From an uncultured Oscillospiraceae bacterium (GTDB lineage: Bacteria > Bacillota > Clostridia > Oscillospirales > Ruminococcaceae): 64,000 nt of DNA. Both the position numbers and the translations under genes were made by a program. Positions 5,116 through 34,368 of the stretch are shown piece by piece. Positions within the stretch are counted from its first letter, which is position 1, and every line of letters starts with the position of its first letter. Under the pieces are notes generated by a model. That model made no database searches. It had not been told where the DNA came from and saw only the letters and a program-made list of their open reading frames with translations. Location: positions 124,001 through 188,000 of the forward strand of contig CAKSLI010000003.1 of assembly GCA_934466475.1 (NCBI GenBank), given 5' to 3'.

Positions 5116-6942
5116 TTATTCAGTAGTAACGGACTTTGCAAGATTCCTGGGCTTGTCGGGATCTATTCCGCGGAGCACTGACGTGTAGTACGCGATGAAC
5201 TGGAGTGCGCATACAGTCGGGAGCGGGAGCAGCATATCGTCAAGGTCTGCGTCTATCTCCAGCCGGAGATCTACGGTATTCTCCGCGAATACCGTCCCCT
5301 TGCGGCAGACCGCAATAATGAAGCCGCCGCGCGCCTTGACCTCCTCCATATTGCTTATTGTCTTGGCAAGGATATCCGCCTGGGTAACTACGGTTATCAC
5401 CGGTATTCCCGGCTCAATGAGCGAGATAGTGCCGTGCTTCAGCTCGCCCGCCGCATACGCCTCGGAATGGATATAGCTTATCTCCTTCAGCTTCAGGGAA
5501 CCCTCCAGCGAGAGCGCGTAATCAAAGCTCCTGCCAATGAAGAACAGATTGTCTGCGTTAACCAGCTTGCTTGCGATGAACTGGCATTCGTCCTTGTTGT
5601 CAATGACCTTCTGTATCGCCGCAGGAGCCTTCAGGAGCTGCGCCGTGAGCTCTTTCAGGCGGGATTCGTCTATCATTCCCCGGGCGAATGCAAACCGGAA
5701 CGCCAGCATATACAGCACGGAAATCTGCGCTGTGTACGCCTTGGTGGAAGCTACCGCAACCTCCGGACCCGCAAGCGTGTGGATATACATATCCGCCTGC
5801 CGCGCTATCGCGGAATACTTCACGTTCACGACTGCGAGGGTCTTTGCACCGCGCTCCCTGGCAAGCTCCAGACCGGCCTTGGTGTCCGCGGTCTCGCCGC
5901 TCTGGGAAACCAGGATGACAAGATCTCCCTCGCCGACAATAGGATCCATATACCGGAATTCGGAAGCCACCTCCACAGTGACAGGAACCCGCGCCAGCTT
6001 CTCTATCGCATAGCGCGCCACGATCCCGGCGTGCATTGCGGTTCCGCAGGCAACGACAAAAACGCGCTTTACGTCCCGCAGGAGCTCATCGGTAAGCCCG
6101 ATGTCCCCGAAATACGGCTCGCCGTCACGGCAGCAGGAATTCAGCGTTTTTGCCACTATCTCGGGCTGCTCGTGTATCTCCTTCAGCATGAAATGCGGGA
6201 AGCCGCACTTCTGCGCCTGCTCAACATCCCATTCGGCAACGCTGACCTCTTTCTGCTCCGGGAGTCCGTGCACATCGTAAAACTCAACGCGGTCGTTCCT
6301 CATGCAAACTATATCATCGTTATCCAGAAGAACGTACTTTTTCGTGTATTTCAGGAACGCCGGGATATCACTGCCGATGAAGTACTCGTTCTCACCGATT
6401 CCAACGATAAGCGGACTTTCCTTGCGGGTCGCATACACTCTGTCTGGGAAATCCTTGAACATGATACCGAGCGCGTAACTTCCCTGGAGCTCCTTGAGCG
6501 TTTCGGTGATAGCGCGGAGCGGGTTTCTCTCGGAGTAATAGTAGTCCAGCAGGCAGGCAACCACCTCGCTGTCCGTCTGGGAGGTGAAGGTGTAGCCCTT
6601 TTCCGTCAGGAACTGCTTGAGCTCGATGTAATTTTCGATTATTCCGTTATGTACTATCGTCACCCTGCCGTTTGAGTGGGGGTGGGAATTCAGGTCGCTG
6701 GGCTCGCCGTGCGTTGCCCATCTGGTGTGGCCAATTCCGCAGTGACCGACCGGGCTTCCCTCCCTGCGGAGCTTCTCGCGCATATCGCTGAGCTTTCCCT
6801 TGGTCTTGACCGTCTTTATCCCGGTCTTTTCGAAAACTGCGATACCGGCGCTGTCATAGCCGCGGTACTCCAGCTTCTCCAGACCCTGCATAAGCACGTC
6901 AGTGCAGTCGCGCTGACCTATATATCCTACTATTCCGCACAT
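5116..6942 (-). CDS. glmS: Glutamine-fructose-6-phosphate aminotransferase (isomerizing)
   Basis: The 608-residue enzyme makes glucosamine-6-phosphate from fructose-6-phosphate and glutamine, the first step toward UDP-GlcNAc and peptidoglycan. MCGIVGYIG gives Cys2 as the glutaminase nucleophile. The N-terminal domain has GHTRWATHGEPS and HNGIIENY. Two SIS sugar-isomerase domains follow, with VACGTAMHAG, SQSGETADT and, at the C-terminus, the expected DPDKPRNLAKSVTTE. Length is standard. GGAGG lies before the ATG. Its 5' leader is about 350 bases long, contains a MITE-like insertion (6974-7252) and shows no recognisable glmS ribozyme. Confidence 0.97.
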   Translation of the reverse strand: MCGIVGYIGQRDCTDVLMQGLEKLEYRGYDSAGIAVFEKTGIKTVKTKGKLSDMREKLRREGSPVGHCGIGHTRWATHGEPSDLNSHPHSNGRVTIVHNGIIENYIELKQFLTEKGYTFTSQTDSEVVACLLDYYYSERNPLRAITETLKELQGSYALGIMFKDFPDRVYATRKESPLIVGIGENEYFIGSDIPAFLKYTKKYVLLDNDDIVCMRNDRVEFYDVHGLPEQKEVSVAEWDVEQAQKCGFPHFMLKEIHEQPEIVAKTLNSCCRDGEPYFGDIGLTDELLRDVKRVFVVACGTAMHAGIVARYAIEKLARVPVTVEVASEFRYMDPIVGEGDLVILVSQSGETADTKAGLELARERGAKTLAVVNVKYSAIARQADMYIHTLAGPEVAVASTKAYTAQISVLYMLAFRFAFARGMIDESRLKELTAQLLKAPAAIQKVIDNKDECQFIASKLVNADNLFFIGRSFDYALSLEGSLKLKEISYIHSEAYAAGELKHGTISLIEPGIPVITVVTQADILAKTISNMEEVKARGGFIIAVCRKGTVFAENTVDLRLEIDADLDDMLLPLPTVCALQFIAYYTSVLRGIDPDKPRNLAKSVTTE

Positions 6943-6973: not shown

Positions 6974-7252
6974 GGGAACCTCTAAAAACCGGGACACGAG
7001 CAGATTTCGTACATGACTTATATCAGATGCTAGGCACCAAACCGCAGCGTTTTCCGCCGTAGGCGGATAATGCGTTTACTGTATGTATTTCAAGGTTTGA
7101 CAACGAAGCAGATGATACGGGATACGCTGAATATAGCGAAGCGTAACAAAATCAGACGCGTGAGTTTCGCGTTTGAACGTGTCGATTTTGTTTTATTCAG
7201 CGTTTCCCTTTGTCATAGAAATCTGCCGTGAAGGAGGTTTTTAGAGGTTCCC
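6974..7252. mobile_element. MITE-like element A in the glmS leader
   Basis: Perfect 17-base terminal inverted repeats, starting GGGAACCTCTAAAAACC, at 6974-6990 and 7236-7252, flanked by a 4-base direct repeat TTAT (6970-6973, 7253-7256). The interior folds into a long hairpin with GCAGATTT at one end and AAATCTGC at the other. It carries the core CAGATGCTAGG (7024-7034) and ACGAAGCAGATG (7103-7114). No coding capacity. Compared with the copy at 31058 it has about 94 extra bases (7118-7211), themselves a hairpin with arms GATACGCTGAATA and TATTCAGCGTTTC. Confidence 0.85.
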
Positions 7253-7364: not shown

Positions 7365-10300
7365 TTATTCTACCCTTATGCCGCCTCCGCCGATATCTGG
7401 CTCTGAAGTATCAGGCTCGGAAGTATCCGCAGGCTCCTCAGTTACGGGGATTTCCGGCTCAGATGTGGCAGGCTCCTCCGTTTCGGGGGATTCCGGCTCG
7501 GACGTATTGCCGGGCTCCGGCTCGGAGGCGTCAGTCCCGTTGTCCGGAACTGTGGGTTCCTCGGTATGGGACGGAGTGTTGTCGTCCGGCTCCTGTGGTT
7601 CGTCCGGCGTCTCCGGAGTTACGCCGCTGTTGTCGGGAGCCTCACTGCTTCCGCTGCCGGAATAGCTCAGCCCGCTGCGCGCGAAATACGCCTTTACACC
7701 GTCCGCAATGGACTGCGCGATCCCCGCCTGGCGGGACGGGTCAGCCATTACCATGCACTCACGCTCGTTCGAGATGAATCCCATTTCGACCAGCACGGAC
7801 GGAAAATCCTGCTGGAGGGTCACCCAGTAGTAGCTGTACTTCTCACCGCGGCTGCTCTGGGTCCCGTCATTGTAAACGCTGTAATCGTAGTACGCCGACA
7901 GCTTGTCGTTTATGCTCTCCGCCAGGGGCTGCGAGAACGGCGTGAAATAGTACGCCTCAACGCCGTGAGCCTGTTCGTTCAGGGCGGAATTACAATGCAG
8001 CGAAATGAACATATCCGCGCCGTAGGCTCTCGCGACTGACGGGCGGGTGGTCGTGAGGATAAACTCGCTCTCGGTTTTGAGCCTTATGACTGTCGCGCCC
8101 ATTTCAGTGAGCTTCTGTTCAAGCTGCTTTGAAACCGCGAGATTCACGGACTGCTCCGTAACATTGCCGATAGCTCCCGGGTCAAGCCAGCCTGCGGACT
8201 TGCCGTAGCCGTGTCCCGGGTCGATGACAATTACCTTGCCGGAAAGCGGCGCGGTGGGCACATTGAACGTTATCATCAGGTCGCCGTTATCATCGTAATA
8301 CGAACCGCAGCCGCTGTAAATCCCAGCCTGGCGCAGGGTCAGCGTGAGCCGGAATTTCGGCACGCCGTTACGCGTTACGGTATCCCAGCTTCCGGAGCTG
8401 AACATGGAGCAGCTCGAAAAATCCGGGAGCTTGGTCACGCTGGTAACGTTATCGAAAATTATCTCCACCGTGGAGGCGTTGAAGCTTGTAACGCCGTAGG
8501 GGCCGTCGTCCTCGTCAACGTAGCTCACCGGAGCGGTAACATTGAATGTTGACTTGTAATCAAGGTGTATTTTCAGGAAGCTCTTTCCGCCGGAATTACC
8601 GACCGCCCTGACCGCAAGCCTGTTCTCGCCAAGTCCCGTATCCGTGAACGTAGTCACATCGGAAGCCTTGTATCTGCGCCCGGAGGTGCTTATCACATAA
8701 TCTCCGGAGGTGCTCTTGTAATAATCCAGGGAGCCCGCGGGGAGCTGCGAAAGCACGGGGCACGGCGCGCCGCCGGTGGTCTGGCTGTCGTACAGCACGG
8801 TGTAGTTGTTCAGGGTCTTGATGTAGGTCACGCTCTCCGAGGAGGACACCACCGGGGATATCGTGCCGACTACCTCGCCGGTGCCGACATTCGCCTGGTC
8901 CTTTATCTCGTCAACGATGACCTCCCTGGGAGGCTCCGGCTCGGCGTCTATCGTTATGCTGCCGCCGGTCATGTACTCCTCTATCCCCTTGTAAACCGCG
9001 TAATAGGACGTGTTTCCGAGCTGCTGCTTCTCGCCTATCTTACCTTCGGGGACGCGGTAATAGCCCACAAATCTCGCGTAATCGGAGTTCGCGTCAAGGT
9101 CCTCGCTGGCTCCTGATTTCTCGCGGAGCTTCACTGTGGTGCCGCCTATCATGGCGGTCACCTTGCTGCCGCTGTATGCGACAGCCTCCAGCGTAACGCG
9201 GGAGCCGCCCTCCACCAGGATATCCTTGGTCTGCTCAATGGAGCTCAGCACGTCAACGCGGCGCTCTATCGAGTAATTAATCTTCTTGCCCTTGTGCTCG
9301 ATGACAAAGCTGTTCCTGCCGACTTTCAGCTCCTTCTGGAAATAGAAGTTGCCCGCCTCGTTCAGCTTTACCTTTTCGCCGTCAAACAGCACGTCGAAGT
9401 TCTCGTCAAAGGTTCCCATGAACTTCACCGTGGAATCGTATGTAACGAAGCTCGTCTGGGTCGGCGATATCATCTGGAGCGTGTCGAACAGCGTGTTCGT
9501 GTTTATCTGCTCGTCAAAGTATTTCAGCAGCGTGGTCGTGGAACCCAGCCTGTCGTCCCGCAGACCTTGCAGAGAGTTGAAGCAGCTTCCGCCAAGGGTC
9601 GGGAACTGCTCCATTATCGAGAGCTGCCGCAGGAGCTGGTCCTCGTACCAGCCGGCGTATTCGCCTATGCGCTCGTTCAGGTGGAGGACGTACATTTTCG
9701 TGTCCGTTTCGTCCGCAAGGGCGCTCCACCAGGAAATGACCCTGTCGAAATCAAGCGCCGCGTCTGAATCGGTGCCGTAAGCCTTGACTACTATCATATC
9801 CGCATAGCCCCGCGAGAGATACTCCCTCGTGTCGCAGTGACCGTCAAACAGAGCCTGCACAACGTCTGCGGTGTCAGAGCCGCCCTCCTTTGAGGAGACG
9901 TTCGCCCACATATCGGTTATCAGGAGCCCCACCGCTGTGGTGTTGCTTGTTCCGCGGATGACCTCGGAAAGGGTGCGTATAACATACTCGTTGGTCTCGT
10001 ACAGCCAGTTCCCGTAGCCTATTCCGGAGCCGCTCGCCATGTATTCCGCGAACATCTCCGGCGTATCGGAGGTGTAGTAATCGTTGAGGATTATTCCCTC
10101 GCAGGCGTATTTCATAGCGAACTTGTGAGCCGCCGCCGCGAATCCCGCGCGGAGCCCTCCGCCCCCGGCGATTACGTCCGCGATAAGCGAGTTCACGTCA
10201 AGCTGGACGTACGCGTTGAAGCCGCTGTCGTGCGCGTAGTCGATAACCGCGCCGAGCGCCCCCCTGCCGGAGCCCATGTCGAGGTCGTAGCACTTTTCGC

Positions 10301-13498: not shown

Positions 13499-13719
13499 AA
13501 AAAGGAGCCCTGCAAAAGCAGAGCTCCCTGAACATTTTCTTTCAGCATAAACCTATCCAAGTTTTGGTAAATGTACAACCCTTATCAAGCTCAGCCATGC
13601 ACTGTCTCTTGGAACATCACACGCGTCATCACTTTACAGACTGCTACGACTATCAAGTTTACGTCAGTCTGATAGGCAGCTCCTGCCGCCTGCATAACAG
13701 TGCTTTCGCGCTGTTTCTG
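13499..13719 (-). ncRNA. Unassigned structured ncRNA with its own promoter and terminator
   Basis: No convincing protein is encoded, yet the minus strand has a complete transcription unit of about 221 bases. The promoter is TTGATT-N17-TATAAT at 13726-13754. At the 3' end a hairpin of about ten base pairs (13504-13527, ends GGAGC/GCTCC) is followed by TTTTT (13499-13503). Inside, the transcript can form AACAG..GAAA..CTGTT with a GNRA loop, GGCAG-GAG-CTGCC, AGACTG..CAGTCT, CCAA..TTGG, and a long-range CCTATC/GATAGG pairing. It lies between two unrelated genes. Size would fit 6S RNA or another housekeeping RNA, but I could not match it to any family (no tmRNA, RNase P or SRP signature). Confidence 0.65.
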
Positions 13720-13795: not shown

Positions 13796-16475
<2,680 letters not shown>

Positions 16476-16566
16476 GAACATCACCTCTGCATATTCTATG
16501 TCTATGCAGAGGTGCGCGTGAATCCGTACAGTTTGTACAGACAATTATAGCGTTTGTGAATATTAT

Positions 16567-16655
16567 GGAGGGTGTGGAGGGTTTATATAACCTTTCTACT
16601 AAAAAAATCAGAAAGAAAATATATAAAAAAGTATATAGTAACCCTCCACACCTTC
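16567..16655. repeat. Palindromic element, copy 1 of 3 (GGAGGG-type arms)
   Basis: Arms at 16567-16583 and 16639-16655 pair over 17 positions with a single G-U wobble; the arm is built on TGTGGAGGG. The A/T-rich loop of about 55 bases is diverged from the other two copies but keeps ATATATAAAAAAG and a TATAGTAA-like end. Confidence 0.85.
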
Positions 16656-16672
16656 CACCTGTAAAAAAATGG

Positions 16673-16769
16673 TGTGGCGGGTGTGGCGGGTTTACCTAAC
16701 CCTTTTATAGAAAATTTGAAAATCATAAATATATAAAAGAAGTTATAGTAAGCCGCCACACCCGCCACA
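16673..16769. repeat. Palindromic element, copy 2 of 3 (TGTGGCGGG arms)
   Basis: Arms at 16673-16692 and 16750-16769 pair over 20 positions with one mismatch; the left arm is a tandem dimer of TGTGGCGGG. The loop (16693-16749) runs ACCTAACCCTTTTATAG ... GTTATAGT and is nearly identical to copy 3. GGGTT-TACCT-AACCC plus TTTT can also form a local hairpin. Confidence 0.9.
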
Positions 16770-16809
16770 AGTCCCAGAACTTGGTATAAAAGCACAACTT
16801 CCAGATTGT

Positions 16810-16910
16810 GGGATGACGGGTATGACGGGTTTACCTAACCCTTTTATAGAAAATTTGAAAAACATAAAATATATAAAAAAGTTATAGTAAGCCGTCATAC
16901 CCGTCATCCC
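16810..16910. repeat. Palindromic element, copy 3 of 3 (ATGACGGG arms)
   Basis: Arms at 16810-16831 and 16889-16910 pair over 22 positions with the same single mismatch as copy 2. The left arm is a near-tandem GATGACGGG-TATGACGGG. The loop nearly equals that of copy 2 although the arm sequence differs, and both arms differ in concert. Confidence 0.9.
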
Positions 16911-16929: not shown

Positions 16930-18330
16930 TCAGTTATTTACGAATGCCTCGAAAGCCTTGTAGGCAGCCCACACATCGGTCTTGGCGGTTATCTCGAACG
17001 GGGCGTGCATGGAAAGCACCGGAACTCCCACGTCAATGGTGTTGACATCGAGGTTCGCGATGTAAGCCGCAACGGTTCCGCCGCCGCCGTTGTCAACCTT
17101 GCCGAGCTCTCCGGTCTGCCAGATGACGCCGTTTTTGTCAAGGAGCATTCTTATCTCGCTGACGAACTCTGCTGAGGCGTCAGAGGTGCCGCTCTTTCCG
17201 CGGGAGCCTGTGTACTTGGTAACGCACACGCCGCCGTTCAGCAGGGCGCTGTTGCGCTTCTCGAACACATCGGGGAATGTCGGGTCGAACGCCGCGTTTA
17301 CGTCCGCGGACAGGCAGCGCGAATTGTGGAGGACAGTCCTGCCCTTGACGCCGAACGCTGCCGCGAGGTCGGCAATGAAGTACTTCAGGTAAGCGGAGCG
17401 GAGGCCTGTGTTGCCGTCAGAGCCGGTCTCCTCCTTGTCGGTGAGGATAGCTACCGCCGTTCTCGCGGGGTTCTCCAGCTCCAGGACAGCCATGAGCTCG
17501 GTGTATGCGCACACCCTATCGTCCTGACCGTAGGCGCCCACAAGGCTCCTGTCGAAGCCAACGTCCTTTGCCCTGAACGCCGGGACAGCCTCCAGCTCGG
17601 CGGAGATGAAGTCGCTCTCCACAATGCCGTACTTCTCGTTGAGCGTCATCATGATGTTGAGCTTCACAAGCTCGCTGCCCTCATCATCCTTAAAGGGTCT
17701 GCTGCCGATGATGAGGTTCAGCTCCTCGCCCTTGATGAGCTGGGTCGCCGGGCGCTTGTACTGCGCGTCCGCAAGGTGCGGGAGCAGGTCGGAAACGCAG
17801 AATACCGGGTCGTTCTCGTCCTCGCCGATGTTCACCTCCACCTTTGAGCCGTCAGCCTTCAGGATAACTCCGTGCAGGGAAAGCGGAACGGTAGGCCACT
17901 GGTACTTCTTGATACCGCCGTAGTAGTGGGTCTTGAAGTAAGCCACCTCGTCCTTTTCGTAGAGCGGGTTCTGCTTCATGTCGAGGCGCGGTGAGTCGAT
18001 GTGCGCCGCAACGAGGTTCACGCCGTTCTCGATGCTCTCCCTGCCTATCACGGACAGTATGACGGACTTGCCGCGGTTCATGTAGTAAACCTTGTCGCCG
18101 GGCTTGTAGCGGTTCTTTGCGCTGAATTCCACGAAGCCGCGCGCCTTTGCCATTTTCACGATCTCGGCGGCGGCCTCGCGCTCGGTCTTTGCGGTATCGA
18201 GGAACTTCTTGTAGCCCTCGCAGAACTTGTCGCACTTCTTCAGCTCGTCCTCAGACATTCTGAGCACTGCGTTCTTCTTGTCCATGAGGAGCTTTTCCCT
18301 GAGCTCCTTTGCTGTTAATTTTGTAGCCAT
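16930..18330 (-). CDS. M18-family aminopeptidase
   Basis: 466 residues; removes N-terminal amino acids from peptides in the cytoplasm using two metal ions. Conserved M18 features appear in order: AAHIDSPR with a metal His, KKYQWPTVPLSLHG, AYGQDDRVCAY with the bridging Asp, DKEETGSDGNTG with the catalytic Glu, SADVNAAFDP and LSMHAPFE with the last His. Length matches bacterial M18 enzymes. ATG 18330 has AAAGGA upstream; a TTG nine bases earlier is too close to that site. It ends the prfA-to-aminopeptidase gene run, 42 bases after the lytic transglycosylase gene. Downstream lies the palindromic repeat array. Confidence 0.93.
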   Translation of the reverse strand: MATKLTAKELREKLLMDKKNAVLRMSEDELKKCDKFCEGYKKFLDTAKTEREAAAEIVKMAKARGFVEFSAKNRYKPGDKVYYMNRGKSVILSVIGRESIENGVNLVAAHIDSPRLDMKQNPLYEKDEVAYFKTHYYGGIKKYQWPTVPLSLHGVILKADGSKVEVNIGEDENDPVFCVSDLLPHLADAQYKRPATQLIKGEELNLIIGSRPFKDDEGSELVKLNIMMTLNEKYGIVESDFISAELEAVPAFRAKDVGFDRSLVGAYGQDDRVCAYTELMAVLELENPARTAVAILTDKEETGSDGNTGLRSAYLKYFIADLAAAFGVKGRTVLHNSRCLSADVNAAFDPTFPDVFEKRNSALLNGGVCVTKYTGSRGKSGTSDASAEFVSEIRMLLDKNGVIWQTGELGKVDNGGGGTVAAYIANLDVNTIDVGVPVLSMHAPFEITAKTDVWAAYKAFEAFVNN

Positions 18331-18372
18331 TGTATTCAAAGTCCTTTCTGTGTATTGTTCATGAGCTTGCGC

Positions 18373-31031: not shown

Positions 31032-31057
31032 GATGACATACATCTGAATTTAAATCG

Positions 31058-31240
31058 GTAACCTCTAAAAACCGGGACACGAGCAGATTTCGTACATGAC
31101 TTATATCAGATGCTAGGCGTCAAACCGCAGCGTTTTCGCGAAGCGATAATGCGTTTACTGTATGTATTTCAAGGTTTGACAACGAAGCAGATGATATAAG
31201 TCATAGAAATCTGCCGTGAAGGAGGTTTTTAGAGGTTACC
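31058..31240. mobile_element. MITE-like element C
   Basis: Perfect 17-base inverted ends GGTAACCTCTAAAAACC (31058-31074) and its complement (31224-31240), flanked by AATC direct repeats (31054-31057, 31241-31244). The interior is close to element A over most of its length, with the core CAGATGCTAGG (31107-31117) and ACGAAGCAGATG (31182-31193) between paired GCAGATTT/AAATCTGC arms. It lacks the 94-base hairpin insert of A. Where A has the hairpin CCGCC-GTA-GGCGG, C has CGC-GAA-GCG. No coding capacity. Confidence 0.87.
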
Positions 31241-32144: not shown

Positions 32145-33218
32145 TTATTCCAGGAACATTCTGAGGTTCTTGCTGCGCGACTGCTGGCGGAGCTTTCTCA
32201 GCGCCTTTGCTTCTATCTGGCGGATACGCTCGCGGGTAACATTGAACTGCCTGCCGACTTCCTCGAGAGTGTGCGCCCTGTCGCTGCCTACTCCGTAACG
32301 GAATTTCAGCACATCGCGTTCACGCTCGGGAAGCGTATCAAGCGCCTTGTTCAGCTCGTCCTTGAACACCGACTGCATCGCGCTGTCGATAGGCGCGGGA
32401 GCGTCCTCGTCCGGAATAAAGTCCCCGAGGTAGCTGTCCTCTTCCTCGCCGACAGGCGCCTCCAGGGAGACCGGATCCTGCGCTATGCGTATGACCTCGC
32501 GGACGCGCTCCGGAGTCATGTTGAGCTCCTGTGCGACTTCCTCGACAGTGGGCTCATGGCCGTTCTTGTGGAGGAGCTGGTTCTGCGCTTTCTTGACCTT
32601 GGTGATGGTTTCAACCATGTGTACGGGTATGCGGATGGTTCTCGCCTGATCCGCGATAGCGCGGGAGATCGACTGTCTTATCCACCATGTAGCATAGGTC
32701 GAGAACTTATAGCCCTTTGTATGGTCGAACTTCTCGACAGCCTTTATCAGACCGATATAACCCTCCTGGATAAGATCCAGGAACGGCATTCCGCGTCCCA
32801 CAAAGTGCTTGGCAATGCTCACTACGAGCCTAAGATTGGCTTCGATCAGGCGGTTGCGCGCCTCCTGGTCGCCGGCGCTTATCCTCTCGGCAAGCTGTAT
32901 CTCTTCTTCCGTTGTCAGCAGCGGGATCTTTCCTATCTCTTTCAGGTGTATCTTTACCGGGTCGTCCGCTGCGATGCCCTCCGCCGAATAATCGCCGTCA
33001 TCATCTCCTGTGGACACGTCAAGCGCCGTATCCAGGTCGCCGGGGGTTATATCGTCAACTATCTCTATATTGTTGCTTTCAAGGTCGTCATACAGCTTGT
33101 TGATCTGATCGGCGTCAATGTCCATTTCCTCAATGGCGTCGGTGATCTCCTTAGTCGTAAGGCGGCCGTTCTGTTTTCCGTGATTGAGAAGCTCTCCGAT
33201 CACTTTTTCGTTGCTCAT
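32145..33218 (-). CDS. Second RpoD-like sigma-70 factor (tandem paralogue)
   Basis: About 357 residues with all regions of a primary-type sigma factor: a short region 1.1-like start ([19 protein letters not shown]), region 1.2 ([17 protein letters not shown]), region 2 ([39 protein letters not shown]), region 3 and region 4 with [18 protein letters not shown]. Compared with its neighbour it differs at the region 2 border (KHFVGRG versus KKYVRRG) and in the C-terminus ([14 protein letters not shown] versus [14 protein letters not shown]). Its start has AAGGA eight bases upstream and lies 58 bases after the canonical rpoD. Probably a local duplication; its promoter set is unknown. Confidence 0.88.
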
Positions 33219-33276
33219 TCTGTGTTTCCTTTCCTCCGGTGAACACGAGGGTTCTGGGTGCCTTATGTATAGCTGA

Positions 33277-34368
33277 TCATTCAAGGAAGTCCTTCAGCTT
33301 CTTGCTGCGCGTGGGGTGGCGGAGCTTACGGAGCGCCTTGGTCTCTATCTGGCGGATTCTCTCACGCGTTACCTGGAACTCCTGACCTACCTCCTCAAGC
33401 GTTCTCTGCCTGCCGTCAATAAGTCCGTATCTCAGGATAATTACGCGCTTTTCGCGGTCTGTGAGCGTGTCCAGCACATCGCTGAGTGTCTGCTTCAGCA
33501 CGCTGTTGCACGCCTCGTCTGCGGGTGCTGGTGCGTCCTCGTCAGGAATGAAGTCGCCCAAGTGGCTGTCCTCCTCCTCGCCGATAGGCGTTTCGAGAGA
33601 AACAGGATCCTGCGCTATGCGGATTATCTCGCGCACCTTGTCCAGCGGCATGTTGAGCTTTTCAGCGATCTCGTCCTCGGTAGGCTCGTAACCGTTCTCA
33701 TGCAGGAGCTGGCTCTGCATCTTCTTGACCTTGGTGATTGTCTCGACCATGTGTACCGGAATACGGATTGTCCTTGCCTGATCCGCTATGGCACGGGTTA
33801 TGGACTGTCTTATCCACCATGTAGCATAGGTCGAGAACTTGAATCCCTTGGTATAGTCGAACTTGTCGACTGCCTTGATAAGTCCGAGGTTTCCCTCCTG
33901 AATAAGGTCAAGGAACTGCATTCCGCGGCGGACGTACTTCTTTGCGATACTTACGACCAGACGGAGGTTTGCCTCGCTGAGGCGCTTCTTTGCGGCCGCG
34001 TCGCCGTTTGCCATACGCTCCGCGAGCTTTATCTCCTCCTCGGTGGTGAGCAGCGGGATACGGCCTATCTCCTTGAGGTACAGCTTTACGGAGTCGTCTG
34101 CGAGCATTCCGTCAGTGTCATAGCTTTCGTCTGCATTCTCCGTTTCCGCAAGGTCGATGAGGTTCTCGATATCGAGATCGGCGGTGTAGTCGTCAACGAT
34201 GCGTATATTGAGGCTCTCAAGCTCCTCGTAGAGTCCGTTTATCTGCTCAGCGTCAAAGTTCAGTTCCTCCAGGACATCAGTGATCTCCTTTGTGGTGAGG
34301 CAACCTTTCTGCTTTCCCTGAGTAAGCAGCTCGTGAAGAGTTGCTATGCTGCCATTGTTCTCTGTCAT
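33277..34368 (-). CDS. rpoD: Primary sigma factor RpoD/SigA
   Basis: 363 residues with the housekeeping sigma-70 layout: region 1.1 remnant ([19 protein letters not shown]), region 1.2, region 2 ([40 protein letters not shown], recognising the -10 box), region 3 and region 4.2 helix-turn-helix ([20 protein letters not shown]). The C-terminus [14 protein letters not shown] is the canonical SigA ending. Its ATG overlaps the dnaG stop by one base (TGATG), the classic macromolecular-synthesis operon linkage. The near-perfect promoters across the window are what such a factor would use. Confidence 0.94.

Follow-up and report, generated by a model that had tools for sequence, protein, structure and literature searches.

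Three palindromic elements that stand side by side between an aminopeptidase gene and the sporulation gene yunB very probably have the architecture of a phage or PICI replication origin, to judge from their sequence. Relatives of these elements lie directly behind D5/P4-type primase-helicase genes, which is also where the origins of Lactobacillus phage A2 and of PICIs are found, and the palindromes thus have the build of such an origin; that they also work as one is something we infer. What is unusual is that the copies in the window (the whole 64-kb stretch of DNA analysed here) have no initiator gene beside them. Why would origins of a phage type stand alone in a host chromosome?

An earlier note on this DNA had offered three readings of the conserved pairing: an RNA switch, a cruciform, or the recognition site of a replication or transposition protein with its specificity in the arms. 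The idea of a site for a replication protein is supported by the elements behind D5/P4-type genes, by the annotated origin of A2 and by the PICI origins. The other parts of the proposal are taken up below.

Layout and pairing of the palindromes

The features of the locus are given in Table 1. That three palindromes lie between the aminopeptidase gene and yunB was confirmed by reading the sequence, by computing its repeats and by Pfam names for the flanking genes. The aminopeptidase stop codon is about 20 nt from c3, and yunB is the next gene downstream on the same strand. Each element is about 100 bases long and every arm is a tandem dimer of a unit of about 9 nt, in agreement with the nine-base unit of the earlier note. 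A search of the 64-kb window found no further copy of the loop core beyond the elements.

Table 1. Palindromic elements and flanking genes in the window
Feature	Position	Strand	Description
c1, solo origin-like element	16566..16657	+	arms TGGAGGGTGTGGAGGG / CCCTCCACACCTTCCA flanking A/T-rich core
c2, solo origin-like element	16671..16769	+	arms TGTGGCGGG x2 and reverse complement, A/T-rich core between
c3, solo origin-like element	16810..16910	+	arms (G)ATGACGGG x2 and reverse complement
c2 core	16691..16751	+	A/T-rich, 61 nt, would-be unwinding region
c3 core	16830..16890	+	A/T-rich
M18 aminopeptidase gene	16930..18339	-	PF02127, E 3.7e-87
yunB, sporulation protein gene	15786..16472	-	PF09560, E 5.2e-26

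The arms pair at 15 of 16 positions in c1 and at 17 of 18 in both c2 and c3, where the sole mismatch is a conserved G opposite G. When the arms of c2 and c3 are exchanged, pairing falls to 12/18 in either direction. The arms of these two copies differ at 10 of 36 positions and their cores at 1 of 60 aligned positions (59 match, plus 2 gap columns), so that the faster change is in the arms (p = 0.0036, Fisher test in which each gap column is taken as a change). This bears out the observation that the two loops are nearly identical while the arms differ in concert with pairing kept. As RNA, all three elements fold far more stably than shuffled sequences on both strands (z -8.0 to -11.1; 0/200 shuffles equal).

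Concerted change of the arms was also found across relatives. For 35 elements the sum of own-arm matching was 622 and the maximum in 20,000 permutations was 464, in a set that is biased, as most elements were found by models that reward pairing; elements that were duplicates or unclear were excluded (L055, L068, L074, L076, L025, L026, L020, L070, L073 and L017). The left and right arms of an element are each other's best match in just 14/35 elements because many elements share a unit. The arm pairing score of solo copies, which have no initiator gene of their own, has the same mean as that of phage elements (17.8 in both, p = 0.97), an equality that is partly built in because most elements came from a pairing-rewarding model.

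The inner hairpin that had been described, GGGTT pairing with AACCC ahead of TTTT, is present in c2 and c3, and c1 has a shortened version of it (GGTT/AACC). It does not hold as a family-wide feature. The GGTT..AACC pair occurs in 7 of the 23 rows of an alignment of 23 elements, all of them solo copies, and in 0 of 9 D5-adjacent rows, and it is therefore a trait of a single lineage within the family. At gathering thresholds Rfam matched only a drum RNA and a tRNA in the 64-kb window, and none of the palindromes.

Other features of the window were observed. The drum RNA (RF02958) lies at 13527-13634 on the minus strand and scores 75.3 bits. A repeat pair at 6974-7252 and 31057-31240, with pieces that are 96-100% identical, resembles a small mobile element in its inverted ends AACCTCTAAAAACC. 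A tandem duplication at 32147-33823 has a spacing of 1132 bp and is 72-79% identical. Immediately before yunB, a small hairpin at 16482-16514 pairs with the region of the ribosome-binding site of that gene, and in many of 30 relatives yunB is preceded by similar palindromes in which the arms change and the loop is like ATAAACATA.

Relatives in Clostridia and their D5-type genes

Search models were built from 6 and then from 23 elements. Related palindromes were found in 6 of 43 genomes in a scan of the genus at E <= 0.1, and in at least 11 and at least 12 of 396 genomes in scans of the family, where the best 10 candidates per genome were scored. In selected genomes 25 places were found in 17 of 20, a set made up mostly of earlier matches that gives no rate. 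The units vary widely between elements (TGTGACGGG, ATGGAGGG, TTGAGGG, TGCAGGGTT and others), and the arms agree within each element.

A D5/P4-type primase-helicase gene ends 5-44 nt away from 10 of the 25 elements, with the element always on its 3' side, and for 9 of these 10 the better-scoring strand is the strand of the gene. At one place (L063) the adjoining D5-type gene is a fragment only. Viral genes of this D5 type have matches to PF19263, D5_N and DNA-primase PHROGs. The arms may carry the specificity of the element, as had been proposed. In a test of this, identity of the D5 C-terminal part did not co-vary with unit similarity (20 proteins, 190 pairs, residual rho 0.06, p = 0.41), in a biased set with units assigned by eye and several phages found via one shared unit.

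Variations in the arrangement of the elements were also observed. In two sequences (L070 at 5903-6016 and L073 at 10129-10240) an iteron palindrome is located inside a very long reading frame that matches the D5 profile, and here the putative origin is inside the initiator gene. In L061 the full element is directly preceded, at about 7900-8090, by one half of another element, which has a different arm of CCCTCT units and the same core end. Two near-identical stretches of about 250 bp, at about 8000-8300 in L054 and L055, come from different places in the genome G098, and each carries a palindrome plus further outlying units.

Arm sequences of the window in viral contigs

Exact arm 20-mers of the window elements were compared with 2.9 million viral contigs. 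The arm of c1 gave 6 matches and those of c2 and c3 gave 2 each; a control 20-mer with permuted units gave 0. In 8 of the 10 matching contigs a D5-type gene lies within about 175 nt of the site or contains it. This is the case for 5 of the 6 contigs with the c1 arm. One contig (L067) matches the c2 arms exactly, in a palindrome placed 33 nt behind a D5-type gene; the second c2 contig, L068, ends at the element. The two c3 contigs (L075 and L076) both have the site 13 nt behind a D5-type gene. The D5 match is absent from one arm-matching contig, L069, and in L072 the partner arm is poor.

The sequence GTGTGACGGGTGTGACGGGT was found in 14 viral contigs, with a D5-type gene beside the site in six (L016, L025, L019, L022, L023 and L026). 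Two others, L017 and L020, have a weak palindrome without a D5 gene. The remaining contigs (L013, L014, L015, L018, L021 and L024) have neither a D5 nor a model match, and several of them resemble coding repeats by eye.

A D5-type protein query matched 889 of 50,697 phage records. In Lactobacillus phage A2 the annotated rep_origin begins at the end of the primase gene, and the 9-mer ACGGGAGGA occurs 5 times, on both strands, within 300 nt behind that gene. Repeated 9-mers in both orientations were likewise found in the 300 nt behind the primase gene of all four other named phages (4/4).

Solo copies and the gaps that carry them

Neither the window copies nor 15 of the 25 relatives have a D5 match around them, in the 64 kb of the window and in 6.6-16 kb around the relatives. 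None of the window elements is immediately 3' of an initiator gene, whereas 10 of the 25 Clostridia relatives are. The neighbours of the solo copies include tpi/gpmI, an isoleucyl-type tRNA synthetase with signal peptidase II, homoserine O-succinyltransferase, endonuclease III, dihydrouridine synthase and P-type ATPases. Transposase pieces are near the solo copy at three places (L061, L143 and L144), so not all solo copies are located among plain housekeeping genes. The genomes G062 and G098 have several solo copies each with related cores; the three in G062 have cores 0.82-0.88 alike and different arm units. In G016 a solo core is 0.92 identical to that of a D5-adjacent origin in the same genome.

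The core pattern of the window matched 2 genomes in the GTDB species set (85k genomes), and in both the element is a solo copy. G001 has one element in the aminopeptidase/yunB gap in the orientation opposite to that of the window, and c3 is likely the positional counterpart of this element. G002 has one element between tpi and gpmI, with the tpi end on the contig, and a genome from the genus search, G025, has an element in the same gap, reversed relative to G002. A window loop 20-mer and a looser core pattern were found in 0 viral contigs. The window core type is known so far in solo copies only (2/2 genome matches, 0 viral contigs). The cores of c1-c3 have an identity of 0.79-0.95 to the best other solo copy and of 0.74-0.75 to the best D5-adjacent element. 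When the 361-bp region was compared with plasmids and phages, only weak similarities emerged, with best E-values of 0.1-0.3.

The cores of c3 and the G001 element are identical in 56 of 63 columns, whereas the window and G001 agree at 127/205, 37/92 and 36/74 of the fourfold-degenerate sites in the genes alongside. A core that outlasts these sites means either selection on the core or recent exchange, two causes that give the same picture in these data.

The presence of an element at either gap varies among relatives. The aminopeptidase/yunB gap was read in 30 of the 38 relatives that have the gene, and 29 of the 30 lack an element there, with gaps of 53-339 nt. Among 30 relatives read at the tpi/gpmI gap (39 have the gene), 2 have an element and 25 have a gap that lacks one; 3 gaps of more than 700 nt were left out. 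No target-site duplication was discernible, and the empty sites are too diverged for clean ends. Another repeat family (like GAATTCGGAATTCCGAATT) occurs at L080, L125 and L129 in one or the other gap without a palindrome. The two gaps may be insertion hot spots.

Possible roles of the stand-alone copies

Given an origin-type architecture, a decoy function is an evenly balanced proposition. Each palindrome would be a compact free-standing origin, with two opposed iteron sets around an A/T-rich stretch, seated without its own initiator gene in a gap between host genes. When a phage enters, its initiator would bind to the arms and so be drawn away from the origin on the phage DNA. It is proposed that the arms change fast, with all units together, because they must match the phage's current initiator, and that the core stays the same because it is required for initiator assembly or for melting. 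Free-standing origins of a phage type that capture the initiators of entering phages would be a natural counterpart of the PER effect discussed below, and the reading is a credible one, if slightly short of an even prospect. Fast arms around a kept core, with three arm types side by side, are consistent with a decoy role. Several observations argue against this role. No co-variation was found between the D5 C-terminal part and the unit, and a plain decoy would need iterons only, yet the A/T core is also kept. Most relatives lack an element at either gap (29/30 at aminopeptidase/yunB), and the gaps that carry elements may simply accept insertions, as other repeats and genes occur there. The window core is found in 0 viral contigs, so that no phage on which a decoy would act came to light. 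It is a bolder and rather doubtful suggestion that chromosomal mimics of phage origins form a lineage in gut Clostridia, with a conserved core and interchangeable arms. Each copy would be matched to the initiator of a single phage type, and arrays such as this one would cover several types, which would amount to a gene-free, DNA-only decoy defence in an arms race with phage initiator specificity.

The kept core is what a firing origin requires, and it leads to another explanation, in which the element is a selfish minimal origin. A phage initiator would fire the chromosomal copy, amplify the local DNA and raise its packaging and transduction, and the element would spread by recombination. The patchy distribution of the solo copies, which are absent at the same site in close relatives, and the several related-core copies in G062 and G098 agree with such spread. 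No target-site duplication could be discerned, at empty sites too diverged to show clean ends, and we regard this explanation as unlikely. The copies could also be neutral remnants, the origins of lost prophages or chance insertions tolerated in gaps. Both gaps do tolerate insertions, in the form of unrelated repeats (at L080, L125, L129 and others) and extra genes, and phage origins are a plausible source, as the solo core in G016 is 92% identical to the origin of a D5 phage in that genome. Against this account, the arms are paired as well as in phages (detection favours paired elements) and the core outlasts the synonymous sites of its neighbours, unless it was recently acquired. No D5 remnant lies around any solo copy, in the 64 kb of the window or the 6.6-16 kb of the relatives, and the window has three adjacent copies that each have a different arm type, all of which makes neutral remnants a distinctly unlikely account.

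Selection need not be invoked for the concerted arms as such. Templated correction within quasi-palindromes plus slippage of tandem units would alone yield arms that change together. From this one would expect neither faster change in the arms than in the core nor a position behind D5 genes, and mutational homogenisation is thus an improbable explanation of the elements. An equally poor prospect is an RNA element, in which a transcript hairpin between co-directional genes ends or protects the mRNA. The elements do lie about 20 nt past a stop codon at both aminopeptidase/yunB and tpi/gpmI, between co-directional genes, their folds are very stable on both strands, and there are two terminator-like sites on the + strand. 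However, both of these sites are on the strand opposite to either flanking gene, the orientation is flipped at the same site among relatives, the inner hairpin is found in 7/23 elements only, the palindromes match no Rfam family at gathering thresholds and the association with D5 genes is left unexplained. The terminator and RNA readings were ranked low after the Rfam, folding, terminator and alignment checks. The RNA switch or cruciform of the earlier note is likewise without positive support, as only some of the solo copies have the terminator-like hairpin, and it is weakened further by a site at which two relatives carry the element on opposite strands.

Should the decoy reading be true, bacteria would defend themselves against phage with bare, gene-free DNA of about 100 bp that can be read through its iterons. 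Even without a decoy, the origins of a large phage group are recognisable from sequence, by a set of iterons that forms a palindrome just after a D5-type gene. Phage-type origins occur alone in host chromosomes, and whether hosts carry functional phage origins is a directly testable question.

Comparison with known systems

The earlier note knew of no named family with these features. This is not right, as the architecture matches known phage and PICI origins. The D5/P4-type phage origins, such as that of A2, likewise have short units, in both orientations, on either side of an A/T-rich stretch, with many different unit sequences, and the arm sequences of the window occur exactly in such phages. 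These origins adjoin a primase gene, whereas the window copies have none in 64 kb, and the A2 origin is longer and less compact than the window elements. In 2000 Moscoso and Suarez, to go by their title, reportedly used the A2 origin as a defence against phage.

MITEs and REP-like palindromes are also short, are located in gaps between genes and are patchy among relatives, and the window elements share with them the short intergenic palindrome and the patchy distribution. MITEs have constant terminal inverted repeats with a target-site duplication, whereas in the window elements it is the ends that vary around a conserved core, and the relatives point to phage origins.

In Gram-positive PICIs the origin is the region immediately 3' of the initiator gene, and in the mapped E. 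coli PICIs two iteron sets always flank an AT-rich region, according to the available part of the source (PMC6092414). PICI and SaPI origins belong to islands of many genes, whereas the window copies are about 100 bp long and alone. No report of natural solo chromosomal copies was found in literature searches that took in few subscription papers, and this is weak evidence of novelty.

The system closest to the proposed decoy is PER. A 302-bp noncoding, origin-like element of phage Sfi21 confers resistance and is thought to bind phage proteins, as stated in the part of the source that was available (PMC6356513). PER has been described for prophage and plasmid copies and depends on copy number, whereas the window has single chromosomal copies with a predicted action. 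The likeness lies in noncoding, phage-origin-like DNA that is present in the host, as is found here, and acting against phage would be the proposed mode of the window elements.
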